Origin: a virus
Virus record (IMG/VR): IMGVR_UViG_3300029922_000075
Location: 1-59,610 of that record
DNA length: 59,610 bases
Direction: 5' to 3' (one strand)
This document shows, one piece after another, positions 3,940 to 28,767 of this stretch. The translations under genes were made by a program, and so were the position numbers. Below the pieces are notes generated by a model. It saw only the letters and a program-made list of their open reading frames with translations, searched no databases and was not told the DNA's origin. The stretch's first letter is position 1; every line of letters begins with the position of its first letter.

Positions 3940-4130
3940 TTAACTAGAGACTTAGGCATTTCATCACCAGGTTTAATCCAACGAGTTCTAGAACCAACAG
4001 TCATAATAGTGCCTGTTTTATCAATATCTATACACCCATTAGTTTCATCAATTTTTTCAGTGATTATCATCTCCCTGGATAATCTTCCCATCTTTGGGAA
4101 CTCAACAAACTTCTTTATTTCCTCATCCAT
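3936..4130 (-). CDS. Truncated RNA-ligase-like nucleotidyltransferase fragment (64 aa)
   Basis: The middle, SREMIITEKIDETNGCIDI followed by VGSRTRWIKPGDE, matches the N-terminal core of phage RNA ligases, in which the lysine of the ITEK(I/L)DGTN motif becomes adenylated and SRxRWI follows. Family members are usually above 200 residues; this one stops soon after the second motif, and the conserved glycine of KxDG is replaced by Glu. It is preceded by the ung terminator and overlaps the membrane gene downstream. It may be a remnant or a mini-domain with another role. Confidence 0.5.
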   Translation of the reverse strand: MDEEIKKFVEFPKMGRLSREMIITEKIDETNGCIDIDKTGTIMTVGSRTRWIKPGDEMPKSLVK

Positions 4131-4145
4131 TATTTTAGATAAAAT

Positions 4146-4178
4146 AAAAAGCAGGTAGGGCCTTTAACACCTACCTGC
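4146..4178 (-). terminator. Rho-independent terminator after ung
   Basis: On the minus strand GCAGGTAG (4178-4171) pairs with CTACCTGC (4158-4151) across a 12-base loop, and is followed directly by TTTTT. It lies 10 bases after the ung stop codon and before the ligase-like gene, so it should end the ung transcript. Confidence 0.8.
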
Positions 4179-4188
4179 TAGCTAAAAA

Positions 4189-4914
4189 CTATTCTTCCCA
4201 ATTTATTTTTGAACCTAACTCATTTTTGAGTATAGATTGATTTATCAAATTAAAAACTCCACTTCCACGAAATAATCTTTGTCCACCATAAGTATCAGCA
4301 GCAGGATGAAGTCCTGTTATAATATCATTACCAGGTTCTACAAATTTTATGAAAGCTTTTGCAACTGCCCCAAGAAATACATATATCATTGGCTTCTTTA
4401 CTGAGGAAATTGTCTTTATCAATTCCTGCATAAAAAGAGTCCATAATGTTCTATGACTTCCAGGCCTATTTAGCTCAACAGTTAAAGCGCTATTTAATAA
4501 TAACACTCCTTGCTTCTCCAAGTGAAGAAGATCGCTATTAGCTATAAAATTATACTCATTAAAGTTAGGTACACTTTCCTGAAGTTCTTCCATTATTATC
4601 ATTAGTGATGGAGACATAGGATAGTTACCTTTGATTTTATTAGCAAATGCTACACCGGTAGCCACTCCTTTTTGATGATAAGGATCCTGCCCAAGGATTA
4701 CCACTCTACAATCATCAAAAGTACAATACTTAAATGCATTAAAAGCCTGACCTAAATCAGGTGTAAACTCATCTCCAGCATCTTTAGCATTAGCTAACTT
4801 AACTAATACTTCATCTAATATCGGAGACTTAAACAATGGGGTCAAAACTGGTACCCAAGACTCATGAACTACCTTCTTTAAAAACTCTACTTTTTGATCA
4901 GTTTCTATCACCAT
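4189..4914 (-). CDS. ung: Uracil-DNA glycosylase, family 1
   Basis: This 241-residue enzyme removes uracil from DNA. Residues 75-80 are GQDPYH, the family-1 water-activating loop, followed by GVATGVAFAN. LLLNSALTVE is the Asn-containing uracil pocket. The usual C-terminal HPSPLSA loop is replaced by GLHPAADTYGGQRLF, keeping the catalytic His-Pro but losing the Ser-Pro, which is unusual. The gene ends in TAG and is followed by a strong hairpin terminator. It lies beside nucleotide-pool enzymes, as expected if the phage keeps uracil out of its DNA. Confidence 0.85.
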   Translation of the reverse strand: MVIETDQKVEFLKKVVHESWVPVLTPLFKSPILDEVLVKLANAKDAGDEFTPDLGQAFNAFKYCTFDDCRVVILGQDPYHQKGVATGVAFANKIKGNYPMSPSLMIIMEELQESVPNFNEYNFIANSDLLHLEKQGVLLLNSALTVELNRPGSHRTLWTLFMQELIKTISSVKKPMIYVFLGAVAKAFIKFVEPGNDIITGLHPAADTYGGQRLFRGSGVFNLINQSILKNELGSKINWEE

Positions 4915-22444: not shown

Positions 22445-22486
22445 CCAAGGTAGACTACGTGGAAGTTCTATGATTGCTACCTTTGG
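22445..22486 (-). ncRNA. Stem-loop overlapping the tmRNA 3' end
   Basis: CCAAAGGTAG (22486-22477) pairs with CTACCTTGG (22453-22445) with one bulged A, around a 23-base loop. The stem begins within the last bases of the tmRNA acceptor strand, so folding this hairpin and folding the mature tmRNA are partly exclusive. It could be a 3' processing or transcription-end signal. Confidence 0.5.
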
Positions 22487-22836
22487 ACCATATGGGACTC
22501 GAACCCATGTCCTGTAATATTAGTGAATACATCTTTAATTTTCTTACACTACAAGTTTAATGCAAGAGCACTTATTAGTTTTTACAGAAAACCGGTAAAC
22601 TGTGGAATCCTCTTCCTGATAGATTTTTCTAAACCTACTAAAATAGAAAGTACTATTAAACTAAAGCTTCTTCCAGAACTTCAGAGTTTGCATTTACTAA
22701 TGCTTCATTCAAAGCATTATCAATTGCGCTAGAGATTGATGTTTTGTCAATTCAAGTTGTGAATCTATTTTAAGACTATGACTCAAAGTCTACTTGAGAT
22801 ATATTTCTATTTACCCAGTCAATTCCTGCATGGCCC
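22484..22836 (-). ncRNA. ssrA: Transfer-messenger RNA (tmRNA)
   Basis: The 5' strand GGGCCAT (22836-22830) pairs with 3' ATGGTCC (22491-22485), giving a G3-U70 wobble, the alanine identity pair, and discriminator A at 22484. The T arm is ATGGG-TTCGAGT-CCCAT (22508-22492). After the 5' acceptor strand comes GAATTGACTGGG, like the conserved tmRNA D-loop region. The reading frame starts at GCA (22691-22689) and encodes ANSEVLEEALV followed by TAA TAG (22658-22653). Stem P2 is seen as GAAATATATC with GATGTATTC. tmRNA rescues stalled ribosomes and tags proteins. CCA is not encoded. The tag ends ALV, not ALAA. Confidence 0.9.
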
Positions 22837-22843
22837 AAGCAGA

Positions 22844-28671: not shown

Positions 28672-28767
28672 GTACCTATCTAGGACTTGAACCTAGGACC
28701 CCTGGACTATCTTTTCTTCGCTAGCAAATATTCAGATCCAGTGCTCTACCAACTGAGCTAATAGGCA
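28672..28767 (-). tRNA. tRNA with a 30-base anticodon loop (insert of about 23 bases)
   Basis: All four arms are canonical: acceptor TGCCTAT/ATAGGTA, D arm GCTC-AGTTGGTA-GAGC, anticodon stem CTGGA/TCCAG, variable GGGTC, T arm CTAGG-TTCAAGT-CCTAG. The anticodon loop (28736-28707) has 30 bases instead of 7, so about 23 bases are inserted exactly there. The anticodon cannot be read with certainty; the loop starts TCTGAA and ends ATAG. It may be an intron, an inactivating insertion, or a tRNA mimic. CCA is not encoded. Confidence 0.7.

Follow-up and report, generated by a model that had tools for sequence, protein, structure and literature searches.

A complete one-piece tmRNA gene lies on the minus strand of a 59.6-kb IMG/VR virus record (59,610 nucleotides, analyzed over its full length and referred to below as the window), at positions 22484–22836, exact to the base. 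The locus is almost certainly a real tmRNA. In the interpretation favored here, to which a probability of roughly 0.8 is assigned, it encodes a long-tag tmRNA of a crAss-like phage of Bacteroidota, which resumes translation at a GAC codon at nt 89 and would work by trans-translation with host factors. Nucleotide n of the RNA corresponds to window position 22837 minus n. The features of the locus are as follows.

22484–22836, minus strand: one-piece tmRNA gene; mature RNA of ca. 353 nt before CCA addition; full-length match to RF00023, unique in the scan
22830–22836, minus strand: acceptor stem 5' strand GGGCCAT, including G3; 7/7 pairs with 22485–22491, including G3-U70
22818–22829, minus strand: D-loop region GCAGGAATTGAC, with a GGAATTGAC motif identical in Sphingobacteriales tmRNA
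22796–22817, minus strand: P2 helix 5' strand; its distal 9 nt AAUAUAUCU (nt 32–40) pair perfectly with AGAUGUAUU (RF00023 alignment and direct reading)
22760–22791, minus strand: pseudoknot PK1 (nt 46–77), with stem 1 of 5 bp and stem 2 of 6 bp
22659–22748, minus strand: probable tag frame DKTSISSAIDNALNEALVNANSEVLEEALV, 30 codons, resume codon GAC at 22746–22748 (from PK1 spacing, A at −4, and relatives)
22659–22691, minus strand: tag ANSEVLEEALV as originally predicted, from GCA at nt 146; last 11 codons of the probable tag
22653–22658, minus strand: tandem stops TAA TAG closing the tag frame, by direct reading
22492–22508, minus strand: T arm ATGGG TTCGAGT CCCAT, 5/5 pairs
22485–22491, minus strand: acceptor stem 3' strand ATGGTCC, including U70, pairing with the 5' strand
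22484, minus strand: discriminator A; CCA not encoded

The original prediction had placed a tmRNA at these same coordinates, which proved correct to the base, with the gene on the minus strand. Its description of the molecule was largely confirmed: the RNA has a tRNA-like domain with a 7-bp acceptor stem and the G3-U70 pair that is the identity element for alanyl-tRNA synthetase (AlaRS), a D-loop without an anticodon arm, the conserved GGNUUGAC, a T arm with loop TTCGAGT, a long P2 stem, and tandem stops. P2 is perfect over its distal 9 bp and, according to both the sequence and the RF00023 alignment, bulged in its proximal part. PK1 ends 11 nt upstream of the probable resume codon, which has A at −4, and the tag frame, from an inferred start, ends in ...EALV, a hydrophobic C-terminus, followed by a stop. 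RF00023 aligned the downstream pseudoknots PK2–PK4 only at low posterior probability.

A check with Infernal and the Rfam tmRNA model, as had been proposed, gave a full-length but weak match. RF00023 spanned model positions 1–374 at window positions 22483–22836 with a score of 30.2 bits (E = 2.5e-10, local stretch, permissive settings), and the E-value in the genome search was 4.9e-12. This score is below the Rfam gathering threshold of 47, which is a detection cut-off and no property of the molecule; at the curated threshold, no RF00023 match was found in the window. ARAGORN, the other program proposed, called no tmRNA in the window. Since this model gives short tRNA-like matches of up to 22 bits in a Bacteroidota genome, a score of 30.2 bits would not by itself settle the identity of the locus, and a custom structural scan was therefore written. 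A match had to combine an acceptor that begins with GGG and forms seven pairs, U70 and CC, a D-loop of the form GGN(1-3)TTGA, and a T arm, all within 600 nt. The scan gave a single match in the window, also recovered tmRNA loci of other phages and of bacteria, and yielded 0 matches in 2.17 Mb of shuffled sequence, which ruled out chance similarity or a mere tRNA. The RNA moreover folded better than shuffled sequences (z-score −3.5). Other phage tmRNAs also scored below the RF00023 threshold, at 37 bits for L099 and 46 bits for Cellulophaga phage phi14:2.

The low Rfam score is what might be seen if the locus were a decayed tmRNA pseudogene or an SmpB-titrating decoy, for which the tRNA-like-domain-only RNA of mycobacteriophage DS6A provides a precedent (PMC4131195) and an 83-nt RNA of the same type in a crAss-like relative (L098) a second example. 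Retention of a perfect acceptor and T arm, G3-U70, PK1, the resume spacing, an open frame, and tandem stops makes this explanation most improbable. The 83-nt RNA, a possible SmpB decoy that like the RNA of DS6A consists only of the tRNA-like domain of a tmRNA, was observed near a GOLLD giant RNA in this relative (crAss-like contig G015).

L098 579–946, minus strand: GOLLD giant RNA, 171.8 bits, above threshold
L098 1501–1583, minus strand: 83-nt tRNA-like-domain-only RNA

The window itself contains an interrupted tRNA-Phe(GAA) (28672–28767, minus strand; Rfam 51.8 bits), with a 21-nt insertion in the anticodon loop, which ARAGORN detected only when introns were allowed. Possible explanations are a decoy, gene decay, and an unusual intron.

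The position of the resume codon was deduced from PK1. This pseudoknot ends 11 nt upstream of GAC at nt 89 (P = 0.008 vs. shuffles), and in three Sphingobacteriales tmRNAs and the phage tmRNAs L167, L310, and L311, PK1 occurs at nearly the same place, 9–11 nt upstream of the resume codon. In Escherichia coli, the resume codon follows PK1 by 12 nt, the A at −4 is critical, and at −5, C or G can stand in for U but A cannot (PMC2481249). GAC89 of the window is preceded by G at −5 and by A at −4. PK1 thus very probably places the resume codon near nt 85–92, with GAC at 89, rather than at the GCA at nt 146. The tag is therefore likely to be DKTSISSAIDNALNEALVNANSEVLEEALV, 30 amino acids from GAC89.

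The original prediction combined a GCA resume codon with an 11-codon frame encoding ANSEVLEEALV. GCA is the commonest resume codon and here, in GUAAAU-GCA-AAC, has a favorable local context, with U in position −5 and A in position −4; a hairpin of 9 bp is found shortly before it, and PK1 is replaceable in E. coli (PMC2481249). A start at this codon would nevertheless leave PK1 (nt 46–77) 68 nt away, and the best pseudoknot suitably placed for it was not significant (P = 0.16), on which ground it was rejected as the main reading. It would also put the resume codon at nt 146, as compared to nt 74–101 in the other eight phage tmRNAs and nt 95–97 in the host tmRNAs analyzed. A tmRNA with this 11-residue tag is accordingly very unlikely. 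Based on PK1 spacing, the comparison with relatives, and A at −4 of GAC89, ANSEVLEEALV most likely represents only the last 11 of 30 codons. The predicted frame and stop were right, and the start was very probably 19 codons too late; a phage tmRNA with an atypical tag had been correctly recognized, with the sequence named for that tag being most likely just its C-terminal third.

No stop interrupts the tag frame between nt 86 and the tandem stops at nt 179–184, a stretch of 31 codons that reads (I)DKTSISSAIDNALNEALVNANSEVLEEALV. By itself, the length of the open frame was too weak an argument to demonstrate a long tag (P = 0.07 in the window for this frame; combined P = 0.06 over nine phages when any frame counts). 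In another frame, a 12-codon tag, TKHQSLAQLIML, could start from ACA at nt 90. This frame has A at −4 and its UGA stop falls within a hairpin loop, comparable to the canonical P5 hairpin, where the Rfam alignment places it as well. It has, however, A at −5, the base disfavored in E. coli (PMC2481249), and it resembles other phage tags poorly (44 vs. 107). In addition, the tags of L167, phi14:2, and the Flavobacterium FpV phages must be long, as described below. Resumption at ACA90 was consequently considered unlikely. For the 30-residue tag from GAC89, residue order in the N-terminal half was no closer to that of other phage tags than a shuffled order (p = 0.39).

Terminase, portal, and major capsid protein of the window showed tblastn matches over 80–98% of their length to Crassvirales and FpV phages; judged by this sequence similarity, the phage is crAss-like, of the kind infecting Bacteroidota. 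Further tmRNAs were found in whole records of crAss-like contigs, selected by terminase similarity, and then in contigs with a GGGCC...GGAATTGAC pattern; BLAST with the newly found phage tmRNAs led to cultured phages. Every named relative with a tmRNA also encodes a homologous terminase, which matches the window's profile. In one record (L005 1366–6975), a terminase frame of 1869 amino acids seems to be split by approximately three intein-like insertions, with HN motifs at the junctions. The custom scan detected no tmRNA in three large crAss-like relatives (G068, G007, and G083, fetched whole in overlapping pieces), indicating a patchy distribution of the gene in crAss-like phages. No DNA match to the window tmRNA was found in 50,697 phage records, the coding pattern of the tag was not found in IMG/VR, and a search with the 30-residue tag among phages gave one chance-level match only. 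Genes adjoining the tmRNA had no functional matches, and no relatives of the downstream neighbor protein were found.

Related crAss-like phages likewise encode long tags. Read from the canonical resume position, these are DKQISNTTVDAQGVLQMFPTVKLEIAA in L095, GNSLSNTTVEEFISTMVVAEREVAVA in L167, AKRNIVSFEASVAPVRLAIAA in L310, ANTNSVKAEELGSFTFDDALALMGVETAELV in L311, GNTNNSVVSLEDNAQVEANMNMAFSLIREDVAVAA in the FpV phages (RF00023, 58.2 bits), and GNDTDNTQLKANMTVVHNILNGSDALIGSSVQKLAMVA in phi14:2. In all six, the resume codon is preceded by an exact UAA(A/C/U)(C/U) motif, and the tags comprise 21–38 amino acids; the frames of L099 and L312 are also long, but where they start is less certain. For FpV, phi14:2, and L167, the long reading is nearly forced, because both other frames close within 8 codons. 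A simple PK1 finder identified no PK1 in L095, FpV, and phi14:2. DNA of the FpV tmRNA occurs at ≥99% identity in 29 Flavobacterium psychrophilum phage records, and no feature is annotated at this place in any annotated record among those listed. Neither is a tmRNA annotated in phi14:2. The two apparently unannotated genes are located as follows.

L106 1117–1530: one-piece tmRNA of FpV4
L314 1462–1933: one-piece tmRNA of Cellulophaga phi14:2 (ca. 470 nt; ca. 4031–4502 in the phage record)

ARAGORN reported merely the last 11 residues of the phi14:2 tag and the last 19 of the L095 tag. In the Bacteroidota, tmRNA was found in 60 of 61 sampled genomes, and in 48 of the 50 genomes examined for tags, ARAGORN gave a tag of 9–10 amino acids that starts at ca. 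nt 90–103 and ends in AA; the two exceptions look like miscalls. With ca. 30 residues, the tag of the window is thus probably three times as long as these 9–10-residue tags.

The RNA of the window shares several features with the one-piece tmRNA of Sphingobacteriales (RF00023; tag GENNYALAA), namely a GGGCC acceptor with G3-U70, an GGAAUUGAC D-loop, PK1 located 9–11 nt before the resume codon, and a P2 3' segment around UAAGCAUGUA. It differs in a tag of probably 30 rather than 9–10 amino acids, in a tag ending in ALV rather than LAA or MAA, and in an Rfam score of 30 bits as compared to 105–198 bits in Bacteroidota genomes. The tmRNAs of phi14:2 and FpV resemble it in being one-piece, with a long tag from the canonical resume position and small hydrophobic C-terminal residues, but they use GGA as resume codon, end in AMVA and AVAA, respectively, and gave no DNA-level match to the window tmRNA. 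The acidic middle and ALV ending that had been pointed out in the predicted tag are indeed present in the window; the ending is not new, since it has been deposited for mycobacteriophage Blubba, whose Bxz1-kind tmRNA encodes a similarly long and acidic tag, ATDTDATVTDAEIEAFFAEEAAALV, ending in AEEAAALV. Blubba is, however, an actinobacterial phage, its tmRNA is detected by ARAGORN, and no sequence relation to the window was shown. Among crAss-like phages, the Oafivirinae also carry tmRNA, but of a permuted (two-piece) form with tags of 12–13 amino acids (RF04321), which is annotated in three gut crAssphages, cr130_1 (L105), cr7_1 (L316), and cr124_1 (L317). Sampled Bacteroidota genomes contain one-piece tmRNA, in contrast to these three phages, and a separate origin of the permuted form is possible.

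That a few phages carry tmRNA, as had been stated, was an understatement: it has been reported in 402 of 18,146 phage genomes (PMC9004378). Earlier lists comprised Bxz1-like mycobacteriophages, phage G, and the tRNA-like-domain-only RNA of DS6A (PMC4131195); in huge phages, tmRNA is present and SmpB is encoded in some (PMC7162821). Recorded tag lengths range from 8 to 35 amino acids (PMC8012679). No description of long-tag tmRNAs of crAss-like phages was found in the literature searched, which covered few subscription journals. Chryseobacterium phage MA9V-3 has been reported to carry both ssrA and a ClpX gene (PMC13120357), a possible phage-encoded tag-and-degrade pair. In the genomes analyzed here, no ClpX match above threshold was found, with one weak sub-threshold match in cr7_1.

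Anatomy of the RNA, spacing from PK1 to the resume codon, the open frame, kinship of the phage, and recurrence of long tags in its relatives were all obtained by computation; from them, we infer charging, SmpB binding, tagging, and degradation by this RNA. Ordinary trans-translation with host factors is the parsimonious mechanism, because the RNA retains the alanylation identity element, an SmpB-facing D-loop, a frame-setting region, and a stop. During infection, host AlaRS would recognize G3-U70 and charge the tmRNA with alanine, and host SmpB and EF-Tu would bind the charged molecule. Host SmpB would be needed, since a search for an SmpB gene in the window and in eight other carriers or relatives found none. 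The tmRNA would then enter ribosomes stalled on broken mRNA and take over as template from GAC (nt 89) onward, so that alanine and DKTSISSAIDNALNEALVNANSEVLEEALV would be appended to the stalled protein until TAA TAG frees the ribosome. Proteins released in this way would carry a tag that is long, acidic, and hydrophobic at its end and that would probably serve a host protease as a C-terminal degron.

For the phage tmRNA, ribosome rescue is the function with the best support. In E. coli, a correct frame is unnecessary for plaque formation (PMC2481249). The long tag might help a protease to engage, might avoid or replace a host adaptor, or might simply drift, its content being of little importance for rescue. 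A more far-reaching proposal, that long lineage-specific tags of crAss-like phages replace the near-uniform 9–10-residue host degron and send stalled proteins to a different protease or fate under phage control, appears doubtful.

Phage tmRNAs are undercounted at the thresholds of ARAGORN and Rfam, and ARAGORN shortens long tags. Such genes appear to be present but unannotated in two cultured systems, Cellulophaga phi14:2 and the Flavobacterium FpV phages. Bacteroidota hosts use short tags that hardly vary, whereas long and divergent tags are encoded repeatedly by crAss-like phages, a difference suggesting that phage tmRNAs do more than duplicate host ssrA.
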